From assembly GCA_026419785.1 (NCBI GenBank), contig JAODTK010005662.1, positions 83,701 through 147,700 of the forward strand: DNA of 64,000 nucleotides, read 5' to 3'. Shown piece by piece: positions 1 through 52,349 of the stretch. Source of the stretch: Sclerodactyla briareus (lineage: Eukaryota > Echinodermata > Holothuroidea > Dendrochirotida > Sclerodactylidae). Position numbers and translations under genes: made by a program. Under the pieces are notes generated by a model. The model saw only the letters and a list, made by a program, of their open reading frames with translations. It ran no database searches and was not told the DNA's origin. Each line of letters opens with the position of its first letter. Within the stretch, counting starts at the first letter, position 1.

Positions 1-1242
1 ATAATTCCAGTTATTCCTGAGAACGCCAGTTTTTTCTCACAAATTGCCTGAAAATGTCTGAAGGGTTCGATAAATTATCGGTAAACAACTACTGGATATC
101 ATTTTCCCTCTCCAGTGGCCAGCAGGTATTGCACATCTATGTTCGCCACTTACATCGACAATGGTGCCCCGCGGGGGACGTTATATGCGTCTTTCTTTTC
201 TGATATAAATGTTTGACATTCTGGAACCTTTTGATTTTCCCCTGGTCGTTACTCTAACCGAACAGGCGAAAACGGGAAACTCCCTGGACAAATCTATTAC
301 GAACAAAACACAACACAACATTCCCCACTATTGTCGGTAGCAGTATGGATTAGATAAGACTCTCTAGATCCATGATGTATTCCTGTATCGAAGGAAGTGG
401 CAGAATTGGTCGGGCATGGACCGATCGCTGTTTTGAAGATTTTTTTACCAGGTCAAATTCATAGTAGACATGATCGGATGGAGTTTATTTTCTTTCTGAT
501 GAATTGTGACACAGTAGATTTGGAGAAGTCTAGCAATTCGATACGGTTATCGGGCATGTGATTGATTAACCATATACATTCCTGGCGGAGGTTAAGTACT
601 GAAACAGAAGTGAACCAAACCTAATTTTGGCTGCATTGAAGGCAGCATGAGATTAGGCGCTGCTTATTCTTGCTTGATTACCACTGACAAGCAAGAAAAT
701 TAGTTTACCCTGAAAAGGCGGCGGTTAACGAGAAGAACATTGGAAATGTGCGTAAAAAGGGTGGGTAATTAGCCAATCACGTTGCAACATATCGAGGCCG
801 GATCGGTGAAGATGGCTAAAACAGCGGGGGGAACAAATGGGAGAAATTGAAAGCAAAATTGGTGAGTAATCTGAATGAGGGTTCAAATTTATCCATTGAA
901 TTGTCTCAGGAGCGGATTGAATGATTGCGGCTCTTCTGGAGCTGGTCATACGAGTCACGGTGAAAGTTCAGCTGCATTGTCATTTGGCAGAGGAGTTTAG
1001 CAGTCCTTCCCATTAACCCCATTCTAAAACCCCGTGAGATGCCATTGTGGCCATCCCGTATAATTGGAGTTTTCTCCCCTCCAACATCGTGGGGACCAGC
1101 AATCTTACGCCCCGGGACAATGTCAGTTCTATGTGTTGATGTCAGGAGGTGGGAGAAAATAGGAATACCGTACTGTGAGACAATGGTCTAAGACAAACGA
1201 GGAGGGCGGGTTTAGGAGACAAATTGAGGAGGATACTCAGGA
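1..1242. other. Non-coding stretch, nothing recognised
   Basis: All six frames are broken into short open stretches without recognisable protein similarity, codon bias or splice-linked exons. No RNA gene or repeat array was seen. This looks like ordinary intergenic or intronic DNA of an AT-rich animal genome. Confidence 0.5.
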
Positions 1243-1329
1243 GGCGGCATTAGCTCAGTCAGAGACTCCAGACTTGTGAAGCGGGAAAAACCCCCGTAAG
1301 TTCGAATCCAGAAAGCCCGCGGGCTTTTT
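1243..1329 (+). repeat. tRNA-like block (tRNA pseudogene or SINE head)
   Basis: An A-box-like TAGCTCAGTCAGAG lies at 1251-1264 and a consensus B box GTTCGAATCC at 1300-1309. The 49-base spacing is that of RNA polymerase III internal promoters. A T5 run at 1325-1329 directly follows and could act as a Pol III terminator. The arms do not fold into a good cloverleaf: the T stem flanking TTCGAAT is mismatched and the anticodon stem is weak. I therefore call it a decayed tRNA or the head of a tRNA-derived SINE, not a functional tRNA. The nearly self-complementary CCCGCGGG at 1317-1324 could also help form a 3' hairpin. Confidence 0.45.
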
Positions 1330-4300
1330 CCGTAGTGCCATTAGACAGGACATGACTCCTCAACTGTCACACGTCACCAAAGTGTAAAAAAATGGGGGAC
1401 AACTCGTGACTGGTGACTTGGATAAGTAGGAGTGATGCGTGTATGTGGCGCACCTATTGGGGAAGTCGCCGGGGGGCACGAGCAGGTAGCACACTGATAT
1501 GTGTGTCGGGAGTCGAACAGGAAAGAGGTGCGTACTATATCTAGTAGACATAGTATAGTTTACAGGCTGTGACAAGTCACTAATGATCAGGAGTATATAT
1601 GTGAGCACTTTGATCACGTCGAACGGCATCGTTGAACGCAGCCGTTTAACAATCACGGGAGGTGTTCATATCAACCTGACTCCACCTTAAAACTGGAAAA
1701 ACTGTTGTCACAAATAAATTCCATCATTCCAAAATGATAGGGTTAGCAACCTCTCTCCATAGTGCCGGAATTATAGTTTCATATCCAACGTAGTACAATA
1801 GGTTACATCACCAGGGTTGGTATCTATGCCGCTCTCAACTTTCAATGGATGTTTTGAATTCCTCTCACAATGACTCATCGGGCCCTTCACAGAATGGTTT
1901 ATTAGCTTTCCATCTTTCTTATATTTTTTATGGGGTCAGAGATTACACCGCATGTCGAACCCTGGTGCCCCATTTAATCAAATTTATAGAAGACTAGCTT
2001 GCTTAGCCTAGATAACTCGTCAGGCAGTTTATTATTTTATTGTCGATATCAGATGATCGTGTAAAGGAACGAATATGTGAAAAGTTGAAAAGCACTGCTC
2101 CGGAACAAGGACATAATTTTGCCATTAGGGTCAAAGGGGGCATTTTTTGTTCTGGTCATCTGTGTCCAGTCACCTTAATCTGACAAATCGCTACCGTCAA
2201 ACTGAAATTGTTAAATTCATAGCATACAGAACCGACTTATTTTGAGAAAAAGATCTCTAGGTGTTGCAATTGCGTTTTCTGATCGCCTTCGTTGTTACAA
2301 TGACCTTTAGAAGAGCCTTTTTGGTGAACATAATACTAAATAATACTAAACTCTAATAAATATGTTCTTATACTCGATCAAAGACTCACAATACGGTAAT
2401 TGTTAAAATGTATCATGATTGAAATTTGTAAATGAGTTCTGTTCTCATGGTCTCATCAATACCGCATTGGTACAGGTTGTAAAATCTGCAGACACGGCTC
2501 TCGTCCATTGGAATCAATTCTTGCCTTTAAGGGCCCTGTCAGCATCCCTCAAATCGAAAACAACACACTATAGGAAAACTTCCACCGTTCATGTTCATGT
2601 CAGTTTAGCTTCATGGAGTCAGTGACCTCACTCTGCATCGGCACACATATGTAATTTGTTACGTGCTGAGAGCCTACAGACGAAATATATTGCGGTAAGA
2701 ATAAACACTTTATGACCGTGGTTATGACGGCGCCTCATCATCGAGTTTTTCTGGTTATTTAAGCAACTCTGGAAAGTGTTGTTGACTGAACGGCTCGCAT
2801 CCAGCAGGATTATTGTTAGCCTATAAAGATTCCTTATACAGAGGTGAGCATCCTTTTTCTTTACAGGTTGTCACGGCACAGTCAAAGAGATCTGTTTTCG
2901 CTCAATTCAACATTGCTTCTCAAAACTTAACTGGGACACTGGGACACGTTGATCGTCATGCAACAGTACAAGGTTTCTCTTCAATATCATTGGCTTCCTC
3001 ATGCTATGAGCCCATTAATGGCTGATTGATATTTAGCTTTTTCAGCCAGGCCCCCACACTTAGTCGTGCCCGGCAGTCTGTTGCGTAGCAACCAACGTCC
3101 AACTCCGCTAATACAGGTGCCACGCACGACGGTAGGAGGTCCCATGATGAGTAACTGATCCACGGCGGCCTCCCGGCCCGCTGGATATGCTTTGGCCACT
3201 TGGGCCATGCCGTCAGTGGGTCCTAGCGAATCACTAATATTAGTTGGAGATGATAAGAAAGTGAGGAAGTGACATGACAATCGCAAAGCTTGGGTGGAAA
3301 ACATGTAATTGTAAACAGGGCCATAGTGACCTTAATTTAAAACATTCATCATCACTGCAAGAAACATCTGTACAAGGAATGAAAAAAAATCTATTGCGGT
3401 TATTAGACTGAATCGTCTTTCGAATCGTCCGGTAGTAGACGCTTCCGCGTTTGCCCTAATTCTCCTATATTTTGATTTGAGCGAAAACAAGACACGAGTG
3501 GACACGATGAGCTTTATGGATTCACAGTGCTGGCAAATGCGAAGTTGGAGTGCTACACGTGAATTCAATCAATCCAACGCCACTAAGTAGTGTAACTGGA
3601 ACCCTGCAATAGTTCGGAGGCAGAATGTCAATTTTTTTTTTTTTTGTTTTTTATAGTTTTTCGTACTGTTGTACTGGCGCACTTATTGTGTTTCCATTCG
3701 GAGGGGATCAGTTTAAATAAAAGTCCATCGTGACTACAAAGGAATACAGGTTATAGATCATGCATCAGAAGCAGCGCGCAAAATTCAAAGCTTTCATCGG
3801 TTTCCTGTGGGGAGACATGCTGCCCGCAAGTCATCATTTGGCGCCTTCAATCTGACAAGCCTGGAAGGCAGCTCTATGAAAACTGACAATTACGCTAAAT
3901 CCGTTGGAGGTAGCCTTGTGGTAACAAGTTATACAGACCTGTAAGGATGGTAATAATTGCATTTCTTCGATCAAGAAGCAGGGTACTTCAAAAATAACTT
4001 GAAAAAAAAAATATCGGCCAAAGTAGCTGTCGTGAGAGGCAGGAATCAAGCGATGAGGTATGGATGCACGCAAGAGTCGCAATATCTCCAAGATGTATCA
4101 ATAGTGGTCTTTACAAGGTCTCATTCAAATAGGGAAATGGATAGAATAGTACGCTTACGGATTTCCGATAAAGTTGCGCCAATTCGGAAATCAGAATAAA
4201 ATCAAGAGTGGCGTTTTCTCTAACGATTTTTCTAGGTAAATTGCCCAGTGGTACCAATTTTCGTAACAAAGGAGTGTTCTTTGAGCTTTTAGCTCAAGCC

Positions 4301-5251
4301 AAGGGTAACCGTGAATAAAATAGACTGTTGGAACGCAACCTCAATCTGCACTTTGGTATTGAACAAAAACAAAACAAGGGGAGAGCCATCTCCGGAGTGA
4401 ACTAGCAACTGTCGTTATGGCGGCCGGTAAAATATATATCCAACGCAAACAGACTTTAGGCAAGAGGTAATTTGGAATATGCCCATGGGCAAGTACTTCT
4501 ATGATTATGTAGCGTTTGTGGCGATTTCACAAGTTTTCTCACGTCGGGGGTCTCCTGATCGACAGAACATATGGGGTACTGGTCAAATCGTTGGATAAAA
4601 TGCATTTTGACGAAAACGTGGTCGGTTGGTTGGAAACCATTGCCCAGAAGACCACAGATAATCTACCACAACATTGACGAGTGCACTCCTAAAAAATTGT
4701 GTAACTGGCACCTAGATGAGTGGGGGGTGACTACATTTCCAACCTTCATTGTGATAATCCATATGCACAAGGTGGTCATTTTTTGCACAACTTCACACAC
4801 TGTTATGTATTTATCACACACCGGGATAATGTGTGTGCTATACACAGTGTTGTGTAGATTATACACAAACAGTTCTAGGAGTGTGTGGCGAATAATTACA
4901 AACCCACTCAGCTCAACATCCAATCCGAACCGACACTTTCTTTTCGGAGTTCTTTATTGCAGTTCGCGTTGATCATAAGAATGTGCTGGTCAGTTCGAAT
5001 TTAGTTCGATTATTTCAGTAGGGTCGGTAGGGGGAAAGGACAACGAGAATCGTTAGCAGAATCTGCCATATGAACATATCATTAACATAGATATCAGTTA
5101 CCATCTGTGTCACGATTCGAAGTTTGAGACTTAGCACGTAAGTATTAAATATTAGATATTCCAGCTATCAACGCCAAATACCTTGCATTTTTCTTTAGGA
5201 GCGATTCTGATCGTAGGACGCTGTTAGCTTTTCTGAAAAGAGTAGGACAAC
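1330..5251. other. Non-coding stretch with minor repeats
   Basis: No gene recognised. A short tandem AATACTAAATAATACTAAA lies near 2333-2351. A T-rich run lies at 3632-3645. A palindromic X-box-like GTTGCGTAGCAAC is at 3080-3092. An imperfect inverted repeat of ACACACTG and TGTGTGCT type spans about 4785-4860 around a CCGGGATAAT loop. The open frames of 60-130 codons here show no recognisable similarity. The one at 3304-2999 on the minus strand is GC-richer than its surroundings but was not identified. Confidence 0.4.
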
Positions 5252-6278
5252 TTAGACGGTAACAAGGTAAGAAACGTAATATAAACAATTACAGATAGGA
5301 ATACTATATACGGAAGTGAGGTGATGTTCTTCGAGAATTTCTGAAGAAGGAAGCGACTTCCATAAGGGCCTTCCAAATTCACAGCGATAATTGCTCAGTG
5401 AGAATTCACCATGGATAGAGCTGGCCTGGTGACGGAGAATACGGCGTTGTTCTGTAAAAGGAGTGGAGCTTCTTAGGTCCAGCTGCGGGGGAATGAGATT
5501 ACGGAAAATATTTGGCAAATCGTTGTTACGATCGTAGGTGAAAACACTTGAATTTGTATTATCATCAATTGAGTATGCATAAGCTACTGTGTAGAGCATT
5601 GGTTGGGAGACGGTACTGATTGATGTCATTGTCTTCAAATTCGATTTTTGCAAATTTTGCAGCTGTTTGGGGCCGTCTTGCAGTCAGACAGTGATTTCGA
5701 TACCATAGGCAATTTCGAGTAGACTAAAGAGTAATAATCTGAAAGGCTCAAGGTAGAAAAGAACATCTTAGACGATAAAATAGCCGTGTATGTGACGAGG
5801 GTACTACTGCCAGGTAATTCAAGATGAGTTCAAGATATAACTTATCGTAAACGAGGAGCCCGGGAACTTAGTATGTTCAGTCGACAAAAATATGAAAACC
5901 TTAAGGTCAAAGGGACCTCGGGACAGAATGCTCGTTAACCATCTTAGCGTGGAAAATGGTGTAGTTAGTTTTCCCAAGATGGAGTGTGAGATTGTTGGCG
6001 TCAAACTACACTTTAAGATTACTGAGGGTGTTTTCTTTTTTGCGTGGAGGCCAGTCCTTAGTCATGGACCAAGAACATAGTGGCATCAGCAAAGAGACGG
6101 AGCGTTCATTGGGAGGCGCATTTTCCATGCCGTTAACATAGATTAGAAAAAAACAGGGCCCGAGAACGAGCTTGGGGACGCCAACATCCATTCCCGATGA
6201 GACGCCTTCGGTTAGACACATTGTTCCTGTAATAAAGATGATTGGATATAAAGTCAGGGGCGTTTCCGCGTATACCAT
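5252..6278 (-). pseudogene. Decayed non-LTR retrotransposon reverse transcriptase fragment
   Basis: Read on the minus strand, the 6278-6006 frame carries the RT palm signature: a degenerate GVPxxxLGPxxFLIYVN block, where the normal form is GVPQGSVLGPLLFLIYVND. The catalytic motif C follows in a shifted frame as FADATMFLVHD, with codons at 6082-6093, so the second catalytic Asp is replaced by Ala. More shifted pieces follow through 5819. The 5653-5252 frame resembles the C-terminal domain of LINE RTs, with an 'LP..F..L' segment and 'GRPLWKSLPSSEI', like the usual 'LWNSLP'. Endonuclease and ORF1 were not found, so the copy is 5' truncated. At least three frame changes and in-frame stops show it is dead. 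The clade is not resolved; the palm block is of CR1/L2/jockey type. Confidence 0.75.
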
Positions 6279-46900: not shown

Positions 46901-47117
46901 TTTCCTTTCAACCTTACCCCACACGTAATACCTCACACGTCCTACCCTTCCAAATGTATGATATGCGTCGTGAAAGATAATTCACCGTAGATATTTGAAC
47001 ATTCTGTTCCATTTAGGGTAATAATGTTGCCTCATTGGAGTATCATCTGCCTAAGAGTTAGGAAAAACGACACCTTCTTACGGCTAATACACTCATATAT
47101 GACATTTTAGGGTTCTG

Positions 47118-47519
47118 ATGTATTCCTTCATGTCTGTTTCTTCTATCAGAAAAGAAATGTGTTTTGCCAATATTAACATAAAGCACACGGGACTTCTCTC
47201 TGCGAAATCACAAGGTGTTACCATACAGGAATCAGAAGTGGAGCGAACATCAAGAACTGAATATCTAGGAGTATGCATTGATGAGAATCTAACGTTCACG
47301 TCGCAAATCTCGAAAATATTGAGCAAAGTGTATTATTCGTATCAAGTCTTGCCTACATTGCTTCATTCTCTGATGAAGGTGCAAGAAAAAAAAAATGTTT
47401 CCAGCTCCTATATTTTGCCACACATAATTTATGCTGTTCCCGTATGGAATCATTCCTTATCATCTTCTGACAAGGATAGATTGATGAAATTCCTCAAGTA
47501 TAGTTTCACGTATATTGTA
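47118..47519 (+). pseudogene. LINE reverse transcriptase C-terminal part
   Basis: An open frame starting upstream of 47118 reads 'INIKHTGLLSAKSQGVTIQE', then 'TEYLGVCIDENLTFTSQISK', 'SSYILPHIIYAVPVWNHSLS' and 'DKDRLMKFLKYSF'. These are the conserved post-catalytic blocks of L2/CR1/jockey RTs (YLGV.ID..L.F..HI and the following thumb). The catalytic palm is absent upstream. Similarity stops close to the left inverted repeat at 47520, as expected if the DNA element beyond it inserted into, or next to, this LINE. Confidence 0.75.
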
Positions 47520-47785
47520 ATAGTACTGCAGGTAAGTGAAAGTATTGTGGTTTTGGTGAAACAAGCATGAAATTTGCATGCATGTAGACTAAATCCTTAT
47601 GATCATTTTAGATGTAGGGCCATCTCAGATTCGACCTGTGACAAAACTTGCGGCCATTTTCAAAATGGCCACTAGCGGCCATTTTGAAAAAACATAAAAA
47701 TCCATATGTCTGGCCCCAAGTGAATAAGGTGTCCATTTCACATAACATTTGCATGACTAATCCAATGGAATGGAGCACTGTCCAC
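47520..47785 (+). repeat. Left terminal inverted repeat
   Basis: About 265 bases matching, inverted, the right end at 51299-51620. The outer part carries the CATGAAATTTGC and TAGATGTAGGGCCATCTCAGA blocks. The inner part carries CAAAATGGCC, GAAAAAACATAAAAATCCAT, AAGGTGTCCATTTCACATAA and ATTTGCATGACTAATCCAAT. The stop codon of the internal gene (about 47758) falls inside this repeat. Confidence 0.8.
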
Positions 47786-50700
47786 CGCACTGACAAAGAG
47801 TTGTACGCCGAAGAGCTGCCTTCCGGACAATTCGCAGCGTCCTCTGCAGCCGGTGTTGCAGCCACATCGCGGAGTACCCTGAAAACTGTTGATGCTTCTG
47901 GTGGGTCGTCCAGGTTATTACTCATCCCCTATCAGGTTTCTTGTTCCAACTCCATTCACTTGGTGACGGAACCGTGGAACAGGGGTCATCATTTGGGCCC
48001 AACAGTGACCAGCCTGATAGGCAGCTCTCTTCGTGTGTTGGATGAGTGCAGTCTGTGTAGGAGGCATACCATCAGTAGCTCTGCCTTTCTTGCTGAACAG
48101 ATGTTTCCTCGCCTGATTCACACCACGCCTCTTTGCTGGTTGGATCGTATAACTAGCACACGAATTGCTCCACGGTTCTATCCACTCGTCAATGGCACAT
48201 GGGTCTGGCATGGCACCAACGGCAGAGAATGCGGGTGTGACGTCTGTGCAACAACCCGTGAAGGCGTGGAACATAGGCACGACTTCTACTCTGGGGGTGA
48301 AGAGATCATCTTTCACCGGAAACAAGGTTTTCCAGACAGGGCATCAAGTCAGACTTGGTTCCTGTTCTCAAGCCACCCATCGGAGACAGAGATGGTGCAC
48401 ATGCTTGGTTTTCTTGCTGGAAGAACTCGTCCAAATTACCATGGCGTATCTGGGAGGCAATGTACAGCCTGGTGAAGAGCGAACAGTCGTTCTCCAGGAA
48501 CGACATCTGTCGCTCTTTCCTTGACTTCTCTCTGTGACTGGTGGTCGGCTGAATATATGGAGGTTGTTCCGCTTGATGGGATCATATAGGTACTGTCTGG
48601 TTCACAGGCCTCTCTTCAACATATGTCTCATACTTCTCGAGCTCAAGTTTCTCCATCTGCCGTACCGTGTCTGCCACTGCTGTGTCCATAACATCTCTGC
48701 CGTTCAGGACAATGAGATCTCTGCTGCTTTCAGTGAACGGGTTCCCCATCTCTTCCATTGCTCGCTCAGCCCCACCGTCTCCCTTCACATAAGCATTGTT
48801 CTGCTCATGGGCTTGGTCGATAGCAACAGCAGAGAATGCGCGTCTGGACTTCTTGACAAAGTTTCCCTTCATAAAACTCAGCCTGGACATTCGGATTGCG
48901 CTCTCTTCATGACCCATGTAGCGCAGGGTTTGGATCGGACACCCATCTCGAGTAGTGTGTATGGTCGAGGGCGAAGAACCAAGGAACGAACTTAGACAGG
49001 ACGTCTGTGTATAGCAGGAAGTCAGCCTCATGTATCGCTCTCACGAGGACCATTACAGCCAGCTCTAGCTGCAGGATGAGGTACCAGAACTGGAATTGTG
49101 GACATGCCTTGGACCTTGCATAACACCAGTCTTCAAATGACACAACTTCACTTGCATCTTCCAACGGTCTGGATGTACTTTCTGTGGGCATTCTAATGCT
49201 GGGATGGTGAGCCGTCGTGTGCGTGTAGTGGGATGCTTTTAGGAACGAATCTGCTGAATAAGTGCTCCTGTCCAGCCGCTACCATCCAGAAGATCTCCCA
49301 GGACCTTGAGGGAAGCCATCTTGATGTGTAGGCCACCAAACATCACTTTGGATCGATCCTCGCCGTTAACGTAACTTGATAGGCCAGTCTTGGATTGGGC
49401 TTGGCCAGAGTGTAGAGTGGCTGGTCACATGTGAGGACTGGGATCTGGCCAGGGTTCAGGACATCAGCTGCCATCGTCACGATGTCCATCGAGTGGCGGT
49501 TCATGGCTACGGAATGTGCCTCATCATGGAACAGTGGGCGGTAGCAAGACGAAAGAGCCACATTCATGTCTCCTGGTGGTCGTGCCTTCTTGCTGGCTTG
49601 CGTGGTATGCAGCCCAGGAGATCATCTCATCTTCCATATTCTTATCTTCAAATTTAATCTTATAAATGTATGCATATTGGTGAATATTTTTATTAGGGCA
49701 CCAGCCAATTTGAAGTAAGCATACAATTTGTTAAGATACATTTGTTATATTTATCAAACACCACTTTTTGTTTATGCCTCCTGCATAAGTGCGCAACGTG
49801 TGAGGGACACCACAAACAAAAAACAAATATGAATGATTAAGTTCATACAAAAAGTAGAGAATAATGACGAGATAAAACTGAAAAGTTGTATGGAGATTCT
49901 AAGATAATATTACAATAAACTTATTTACACGGATTTTATATACTATACATTTGGTGTCCCTTTACACGTGCACCTGAGGTGGACAGAAAGGGGTTAACGC
50001 GGAAAATGGAACAGCACGCATTTATCAGCGTTAATATATTGTTATGAATGCCAAACATGAAAAACATTCTGAAATATTTACTGCACAAATAAGTTATTCC
50101 TTTGAAGTTTTGTAGAAAGAAGTTTAATTTATAATTAGTACAGTCATTTCACAACGTTGAGCCCTAAAGTGAAATTGCATTTCAGCGATAAGTAACAAAC
50201 AATATATTTGTTATAACAGTAAAAAAAGTAAGCATAAAACAATAAAGTATCCCTTAAAAATAAGCAACACTTCTCACTTTTTTTAAAGAAGTTCTTCATT
50301 TTGGTGTCCCTTTACACGTGCAACCAACTTGTGCTTGATTTGTGAATAATTGGGAAAATATTTAATAAATATGTGCAACCTACTGATATTCCTTCCGCAA
50401 GGCTTTAGGTATGAGCTGACAGTCTGCTCAGTTTGGACCTTCTTGCTTCGGCACCGGGGGGTCTTGCCTTGGAAGAGCACAGGTGGTACATTGGTGTAAG
50501 CCTGGGGGAGAGATGCTGTCATCTTCTTGACACTAGCAGTATACGATGGTGTGGGCAACAGCTCGGGAAGTTCCACTGTCTGGGTGTTGGAACAGCGATA
50601 TTCCCGTTCTATGGAATAGTCGTGGGCTCTGGTTGAGCTGGGGTTGTGGTCGATGTTATCAACCGCAGCCATCGTGAAGAGTCACCTTTCAGGTCGACAG

Positions 50701-51000
50701 AGGACCCACTGTTTCTCCATAAGTTGTACTATTGGCAGATCTTGTCGCCAAGCTCAGTTGAGATAGCCTTACCCATTCAGAGGAAATACTCAGTCCAGAC
50801 CATGGGAACGGTCCAACGTTCACGCTTGCGGGTCTTCGTGTGGACCATCACTCCCGAGTAGATGGGTAGAGGAGTTTTCCTTTCTTGGTTGTGCCTTATT
50901 GTAAATGGGGCCTGCTGATTCTCACGACGTCCGTACCATGCTGTTAGACATCAGTTATTATGAAATCGTGAGTACTGGCTGGGGCATTGTTGAGACCTTG
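47757..51000 (-). pseudogene. Broken transposase-like gene (XPG-like, Cys-rich tail family)
   Basis: Read from 51000 downward on the minus strand in several frames. 'IRHNQERKTPLPIYSG' and 'VMVHTKTRKRE' come first, then 'AVDNIDHNPSSTRAHD' (about 50667). After a non-coding gap come 'SMDIVTMAADVLNPGQIPVL' (about 49480) and 'PQFQFWYLILQLELAVMVLV' (about 49095). These are followed by 'KSRRAFSAVAIDQAHEQNNA', 'AMEEMGNPFTESSRDLIVLN', 'NDCSLFTRLYIASQ' (about 48480) and 'MFHAFTGC' (about 48268). The last blocks are 'NQARKHLFSKKGR' and 'HTKRAAYQAGHCWAQ', and a Cys-rich end 'LRRTTLCQCGGQCS' (about 47770). I recognise the order from a common animal family of roughly 900-1200 residues. At least six frame changes and an internal deletion after TGC are present. 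The XPG-like role is inference. Confidence 0.7.
49670..50275. other. AT-rich non-coding gap inside the transposase-like gene
   Basis: About 600 bases between two coding parts of the gene lack family similarity. An exact 22-base direct repeat, TTGGTGTCCCTTTACACGTG plus CA, is at 49951-49972 and at 50301-50322, just at the inner edge of the upstream coding part. It could be a decayed intron or a secondary insertion. Confidence 0.55.
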
Positions 51001-51135
51001 ACTGTGCCTTGATGTTTCAAAAACAAGAATGTTCCATGACCGACGTCAACATTTTTTTTTTTAGCTCAAACCAACCTTTATAGTCATTGTAGCTTATCAG
51101 TTTAGAAAAATATGAGGTTGTTGGTGTTTTTTTTT

Positions 51136-51461
51136 CAAAATGGCGGAAGGCAGCCATCTTGGATTTGGGTACCCTGGGAATACCAAAATGGTTCAGTATG
51201 CACTCCAGTGGATCAGTCAAGCAAATATTATGTGAAAAGGACACCTTTTTTGTCATTCTAAATTGTTGGGGGCGAGATATGTAGATTTTTATGTTTCTCA
51301 AAATGGCAGATAGCAGCCATCTTGGATTTGGGTACCCTGGGAATCCCAAGTGGTTCAATATGCAATCCACTGGATTAGTCATGCAAATATCATGTGAAAA
51401 GGACACCTTTCTTTGTCATTTTACCTTATTCGGGGCGAGATATATGGATTTTTATGATTTC
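51136..51461. repeat. 163-bp tandem duplication within the right inverted repeat
   Basis: CAAAATGGCGGAAGGCAGCC begins at 51136 and CAAAATGGCAGATAGCAGCC at 51299. Each is followed by ATCTTGGATTTGGGTACCCT and by GTGAAAAGGACACC. The left terminal repeat has a single copy of the inner unit, so the right end was lengthened after the inverted repeats formed. Confidence 0.9.
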
Positions 51462-51620
51462 TCAGAATAAGAAGATGCCCCATTTTTTGTTACAGGTCAA
51501 ATCTGAGATGACCCTACATCTAAAACTGATCACCAGGGTTCGTCTACCTGCTGCGAAATTTCATGCTTGTTTCACCGAACCCACAATTCGTCTAAATATT
51601 TCACCTATCTGCAGTACTAT
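51299..51620 (-). repeat. Right terminal inverted repeat
   Basis: Inverted partner of 47520-47785. The outermost matching bases are TGCAGTACTAT at 51610-51620, and the inner boundary lies in the 163-bp repeated unit. Identity is high in the middle and broken by small indels near the outer end (for example GAAATATTTAGACGAATTGTGG versus GAAAGTATTGTGG, reading inward). Confidence 0.8.
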
Positions 51621-52349
51621 GAACACAGCAACGAAGGATGAATTTGTGAGGATGACATACAAAATCAGAGATGACAATTTCGTGCATTACATTCACACAA
51701 TTGTCAATTTCTGAAATAGTAATAGAATGATCGCACGTTGTCGTAATAATGCCGAGTCTAGTCCAATGGATTTACTGACAGTTGCACGTTTCAATATGCT
51801 TCTTATACACAACTTTCTCTCGGTGATATTTCATCCCTTCCGAAAACTGCTTACTAGTAGTGAGTATTGAACTGTAACACGAACGCCGTAGGCAAATGCT
51901 TCCGTATCCATACAACACCACGGGCGCCTAACTCCAACTCGCGTGACACGGAAAGAGCAACTGATAATGAAACTAAATCCTGATCCAAGTAGATGAAACC
52001 TGACGACCCAACGGATTTGCCTCTCGTCTCAGCGCTCTGAGTCAGTCACAAGGAAAAAAAAAATCCACTCTATAACGATTCTTCGATATTCTGCTACGCG
52101 ATACCTTCATATTTCAGGCTGAACTAGGGAGAAGGAGGTCTGTGTGGTAACGAATGTCATGAATACTAGTGCACTGTCACAATGCCTTCCAAAAATCGAA
52201 GGTGTTCGAAACAAACCCTATTACCCGTTAGAAGTCGTACGGTAAATCGTTTAGCTTAACGAGAACGATATGTGAATATGAAAACGTAGTGAAGGGTTAT
52301 TCCACATCGGAATTGTTTGGCAAAATGAAATGTCCTTCGTCATGTGCAT

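Follow-up and report, generated by a model that had tools for sequence, protein, structure and literature searches.

We identified a DNA transposon at 47521-51619 of a 64,000-nucleotide stretch of the Sclerodactyla briareus genome (the window; positions 83,701 to 147,700 of contig JAODTK010005662.1, contig C2905 of the 319-Mb assembly), where inverted arms flank one broken minus-strand gene. The element has dispersed copies with common termini, 3-bp target-site duplications (TSDs) and, for three copies, uninterrupted targets. These ends, duplications and empty sites show that the gene is part of the transposon and not of the host. The segment is one copy, decayed and with internal deletions, of a cut-and-paste family of ~5.3 kb, for which AcademX is the most probable classification; the family is a new one of a known kind of transposon. 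A first-pass annotation of the window had described inverted repeats around a broken minus-strand gene and had taken the whole for a transposon. Both claims were borne out, since the arms were found mechanically at that place, the protein blocks it had named are present in minus-strand open frames with frameshifts between them, and the element is multicopy and bracketed by terminal inverted repeats (TIRs).

A search of the assembly with the whole element detected the gene together with one or both arms on 14 further contigs (C2247, C2287, C3104, C1955, C2258, C3074, C2084, C184, C984, C2795, C2836, C2102, C1391 and C959), giving 15 loci. The left repeat alone produced at least 62 matches, and all those listed fell on the same 15 contigs (30 candidates scored). 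The family termini, TAGTAC...GTACTA, were kept at both ends in 10 of the 15 loci; the left termini of L013 and L018 are poorly kept, yet these loci are counted among the ten. The locus on C184 is cut by the contig end, those on C1955, C1391 and C2102 are without one end, and that on C2084 retains just the inner part of one arm. The copy on C3104 measures 5280 bases. The first-pass annotation had proposed that copies, ends and duplications be sought in the same genome, and had held that genomic copies without the repeats, or a single-copy gene, would speak against a transposon; the genomic copies carry the repeats, and the gene is multicopy.

We examined the flanks of the ten two-ended copies for target duplications. 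An exact 3-bp duplication was present in six of them (TTC, ATA, AGG, CTG, TCT and CAA), mismatched left-right pairs agreed at 3 bp in 2 of 90 cases, and duplications of 2 bp and of each length from 4 to 8 bp were seen in 0 of 10. Ends were placed by a single affine-gap rule against two terminal-sequence variants, themselves derived from these copies. This rule replaced hand readings of L014/15 and L023 and was adopted after the outcome of an earlier linear-gap rule had been seen; under it, L023 lies outside the six copies with exact duplications. Two results weigh against a regular 3-bp duplication: the linear-gap rule gave one in just 2 of 10 copies, and four of the ten, the copy in the window among them, are without an exact duplication under the affine-gap rule. 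The duplication of the window copy (TAA/TGA) is decayed or absent.

For seven of the ten two-ended copies (one of them in part), the two flanks were joined and compared with the genome, and 40 of 459 candidates were scored. Matches spanned the junction for three of the seven, namely the copies on C3104 (one place), C3074 (one place) and C2247 (24 of the 40 matches listed). The target of the C2247 copy is a dispersed repeat, with its 24 listed places (L068-L073 and more) 75-82% alike. On the empty sites that were fetched, a 3-base overlap of the flanks was seen at all six C2247 sites (TTC) and at the one C3074 site (CTG). The scripted overlap at the single C3104 empty site was 2 bases (1 of 1); by eye it was 3 bases with one mismatch, reading AAG versus AGG at both ends of the element. 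The duplications and empty sites give direct evidence for transposition and for a stagger of 3 bases, and the common termini, 3-bp duplications and uninterrupted targets together therefore identify a cut-and-paste DNA transposon.

The copies are decayed, and no intact gene was seen among the 15 loci read. Divergence from the majority sequence was 9-19% in 11 of the 13 aligned copies, and 25% and 29% in the poorly aligned L023 and L022, respectively. Over the 13 rows, divergence at first, second and third codon positions was nearly equal in three of six stretches (DDE2, 0.282/0.279/0.267; DDE3, 0.318/0.321/0.327; E, 0.240/0.231/0.235), and highest at the first position in two (XPG-like, 0.231/0.194/0.197; C, 0.242/0.196/0.228). 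Five of the six coding stretches are without a third-position excess, as neutral decay predicts; one short N stretch, in which the third position is highest (0.244/0.241/0.318), weighs against it. The copies would have decayed neutrally after a burst. The locus on C1391 (L022) carries one gene segment twice in the same orientation (547-1181 and 1622-2268), the two being ~1.1 kb apart.

We considered two explanations in which the gene would not be the transposon's own. The loci could belong to a host multigene family or a segmental duplication, with inverted repeats nearby by chance. The gene was indeed present wherever the left repeat matched, and none of the 30 scored left-repeat candidates was a repeat without the gene, as such a family would have it; this reading is nevertheless scarcely credible, since the copies share their termini and six of the ten two-ended ones have a 3-bp duplication, the flanks of the seven searched copies matched no other copy's flank among the 40 matches listed, and divergence is without a general third-position excess. 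The empty sites refute it. Alternatively, a non-autonomous or foldback-type element might have captured a foreign gene and been mobilised by another transposase. Long TIRs whose inner tandem units vary would suit such an element, as would the lack of an intact gene among the loci read, but parts of the same gene stand at 15 of 15 loci, one would hardly expect a captured gene in every copy, and the gene blocks look transposase-like. We therefore regard capture as very improbable and the gene as the transposon's own.

The inverted arms of the window copy were characterised in the assembly search, in which 47520-47772 matched the reverse complement of 51363-51620 with 72% identity over 253 bases (E 2.9e-35). 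The arms also align as colinear inverted pieces of 22 nucleotides (91% identity), 49 (84%), 49 (88%), 37 (86%) and 47-50 (86-89%). The right arm is longer than the left because an inner unit of ~163 bp occurs twice there (~51131-51293 and ~51294-51456), and this doubling accounts for the repeat length of 265-320 bases given in the first-pass annotation. In the C3074 copy (L014, C3074:140600-147500) the ~163-base units are expanded to a satellite-like array of ~4.6 kb (about 990-5589). Directly left of the element in the window, a plus-strand open frame (47103-47570) resembles the C-terminal part of a non-long-terminal-repeat reverse transcriptase; the element may have inserted into or beside this frame. 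The features of the window copy are listed below.

Table 1. Features of the transposon copy in the window, in window coordinates; the catalytic roles are predicted from sequence.
Feature	Position	Strand	Remarks
Left target flank TAA	47518..47520	.	On the right, TGA (51620-51622); the two flanks agree in 2 of 3 letters
Left terminal inverted repeat	47521..47772	+	Outer end TAGTACTGCAG
Cys-rich C-terminal tail (CQCGGQC)	47757..47921	-	No Pfam match
Deletion site	48245..48281	-	Loss of ~740 bp relative to other copies, taking HEEADTR, VDTDV and adjoining blocks of the nuclease-like region
FHAFTGC remnant	48251..48271	-	Majority reading across copies is FHAFTGCDTVS
NDCSLFTRLYIASQ block	48306..48581	-	Beginning of the C-terminal part
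IDQAHEQNN block	48795..48821	-	Candidate last catalytic Glu
FEDWC...LELAVMVLVRAIHEADFLLYTD...PWFFALDHTHYSRWVS block	48907..49278	-	Open frame and other copies
FGGLHIxMASLKVLGDLLDGSGWTGAL block	49239..49424	-	Open frame and other copies
VLNPGQIPVLTCDQPLY block	49412..49462	-	Candidate second catalytic Asp
AT-rich stretch without any block found	49665..50383	-	Probable intron; splice sites guessed by eye
VDNIDHNP block	50640..50663	-	Candidate for the first catalytic Asp of a DDE-like transposase; block also present in other copies; coordinates counted from the open frame
Right terminal inverted repeat	~51201..51619	-	Outer end GTACTA; contains parts of two ~163-bp tandem units

The protein was read as a majority over the copies, from which single copies deviate. 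Its first half comprises, in order, an N-terminal block with HTKTRKR, VDNIDHNP, LTCDQPLY, FGGLHIEM, FEDWC, PWFFALDH, IDQAHEQNN...GLTENPAALRRWMV and NDCSLF. These are followed by a block with FDGAA and DIVWDLYMAD, then HEEADTRI, VDTDV, FHAFTGCDTVSCFGGRGKKTAWDTW and the Cys-rich tail. Three early acidic blocks, found in the same order across copies, would form a DDE-like triad. Pfam scans weigh against this assignment, as neither the Cys-rich tail nor two read-through rows of the DDE-like part matched any family, a test that is weakened by the broken state of the copies. Other Pfam matches were weak and unrelated, and below curated cut-offs where these were shown (DUF3086, 0.15; CR_prot_dom_plant, 0.034; ACP_PD, 0.12; CCDC92, 0.25; Kelch_4, 0.019 in 1 of 10 rows).

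The window copy lacks parts of this gene. Its ~740-bp loss extends to either side of the FHAFTGC remnant, most of the nuclease-like part is gone, and a further ~180 bp are missing near 48768 compared with other copies. The AT-rich stretch between the first and second DDE-like blocks is common to at least half of the aligned copies and is probably an intron. Within it, the 23-base TTTGGTGTCCCTTTACACGTGCA occurs exactly at 49950-49972 and 50300-50322, spaced by 350 bases, and part of it recurs in inverted orientation at 49803-49822; these repeats are possibly a small nested element.

The later five acidic motifs of the majority reading match, in order and rough spacing, active-site residues of the XPG/FEN 5' nucleases. 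The shared order is D, D, E-x-[DE], D-x-D and G-C-D, followed by a GxG stretch after GCD. Spacing was compared against FEN1 alignments, with the catalytic residues of FEN1 assumed. In residue shuffles, E-[AGS]-[DE]...D-x-D...G-[CTS]-D with its spacing arose in 39 of 200,000 cases, and a looser form in 112 of 200,000, the pattern having been chosen post hoc with the sequence already seen. In a first whole profile comparison with FEN1, the best local match placed GGRGKKxAWDTW on the stretch after the FEN1 GTD, at an equal distance from GCD and GTD.

Several results weigh against a relationship to these nucleases, beginning with that profile comparison itself, which was not significant (P 0.055). 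Of the 11 rows that cover D-x-D, only 5 keep it, and GCD is intact in 7 of 12. No XPG family was found in Pfam scans of the element's protein rows, and no PDB sequence matched at E<=10. Comparison with four FEN1 sequences by hhalign gave 15.2 for the core, a value that the reversed profile and 29 of 150 column-shuffled profiles also reached, and 13.1 for the N part, which was reached in 42 of 150 shuffles and compares with 15.3 for the reversed profile. The putative nuclease part is thus predicted from motif order, and its homology is statistically unsupported. The first-pass annotation had likened the FHAFTGC(D) block to the GCD of XPG/FEN nucleases; the residues are there in most of the copies that retain this place, the window copy itself reads GCC in place of GCD, and the likeness stands as one of motif.

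A mechanism can be proposed from these blocks. The single minus-strand gene would encode the transposase, whose DDE/RNase-H-type core (VDNID, LTCDQ, AHEQNN) would bind the repeats, excise the element and join it to the target with cuts 3 bp apart. The C-terminal XPG/FEN-like part (FDGAA, DIVWD, EEADTR, VDTDV, GCD) might trim or open strand ends at excision or joining, and the Cys-rich tail could bind DNA or protein.

More distant fragments were found in the same assembly on C3087, C3108, C3153, C1519, C3041, C2792 and C2117. One end of the C3104 copy is matched on C3087 as well, and an inner part of the arm on C3108; the 15 copies are therefore a lower bound. Fragments of the same protein family were read at L057, L058 (on C3087), L059, L060 and L061, and suggest older related families; no arm-like inverted pair of at least 30 bases was found in L057-L059. 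Outside this genome, the D block of the window had no relatives in IMG/VR, back-translated IDQAHEQNN was matched by no stretch in either IMG/VR or GTDB, and FHA[FL]TGCD gave 0 in IMG/VR, to which that search was confined. Such a result in prokaryote and virus collections is expected because the element is from an animal.

The ends, 3-bp duplications and empty sites are direct evidence that a gene whose blocks stand in this order belongs to a transposon. The first-pass annotation had ascribed the same protein to many animal gene models annotated only as uncharacterized; if the family is indeed that widespread there, many 'uncharacterized protein' models could be removed from host gene counts. 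The role of an XPG-like nuclease in transposition would also become open to test in a species whose copy is younger.

Academ transposons carry an XPG nuclease and a Cys8 finger, PIF/Harbinger elements have a DDE_Tnp_4-type domain, and the CMC superfamily, too, has short TSDs. The element shares short TSDs and TIRs with PIF/Harbinger, Zator and CMC; it differs from them in that no Pfam DDE family was matched, by copies that are broken, and its protein blocks differ from those known for these superfamilies. It could still be a TIR transposon with 3-bp duplications from one of these or an unnamed superfamily, its XPG resemblance being due to chance or convergence. The negative XPG/FEN profile tests favour this, as do the TSDs of 3 bp in Zator and of 0-4 bp in Harbinger and its relatives given in an excerpt of PMC10045372. 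We nonetheless consider it unlikely, because the order and spacing of the acidic motifs fit XPG/FEN, TSD length and size fit Academ, and the Pfam scans, although weakened by broken copies, returned no DDE family.

The preferred assignment to Academ, the name put forward in the first-pass annotation, is likely but unproven, as it was judged by TSD length, size and motif order. The element is here called Academ-like and is not entered as an established member. It is rather doubtful that the element represents a lineage separate from the described Academ, in which a DDE-like core, an XPG/FEN-like nuclease and a Cys-rich tail are fused and the TIRs grow as ~163-bp arrays; the animal models would then be mis-annotated transposase genes of that lineage.

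Within Academ, an excerpt of PMC10045372 gives TSDs of 3-4 bp for AcademX and 9-10 bp for AcademH, and links this difference to nuclease versus helicase. The element would share the Academ superfamily with AcademH but differs in its TSDs, which were matched at 3 bp only among lengths of 2-8 bp under the affine-gap rule and in 0 of 10 copies at 9 and at 10 bp under the linear-gap rule, and in that Pfam scans of its proteins detected no helicase family. It differs from AcademX, with which it was compared by published description, in its statistically unsupported XPG domain and possibly in its long TIRs with inner ~163-bp tandem units. The likenesses to AcademX are the TIRs, a single protein that by its motifs is DDE-like and nuclease-like, the 3-bp TSD as against 3-4 bp (PMC10045372, in excerpt), and size, the C3104 copy lying close to the mean length of 5565 bp reported for bivalve Academ elements in an excerpt of a survey with 100 curated Academ consensus sequences (PMC10294476).

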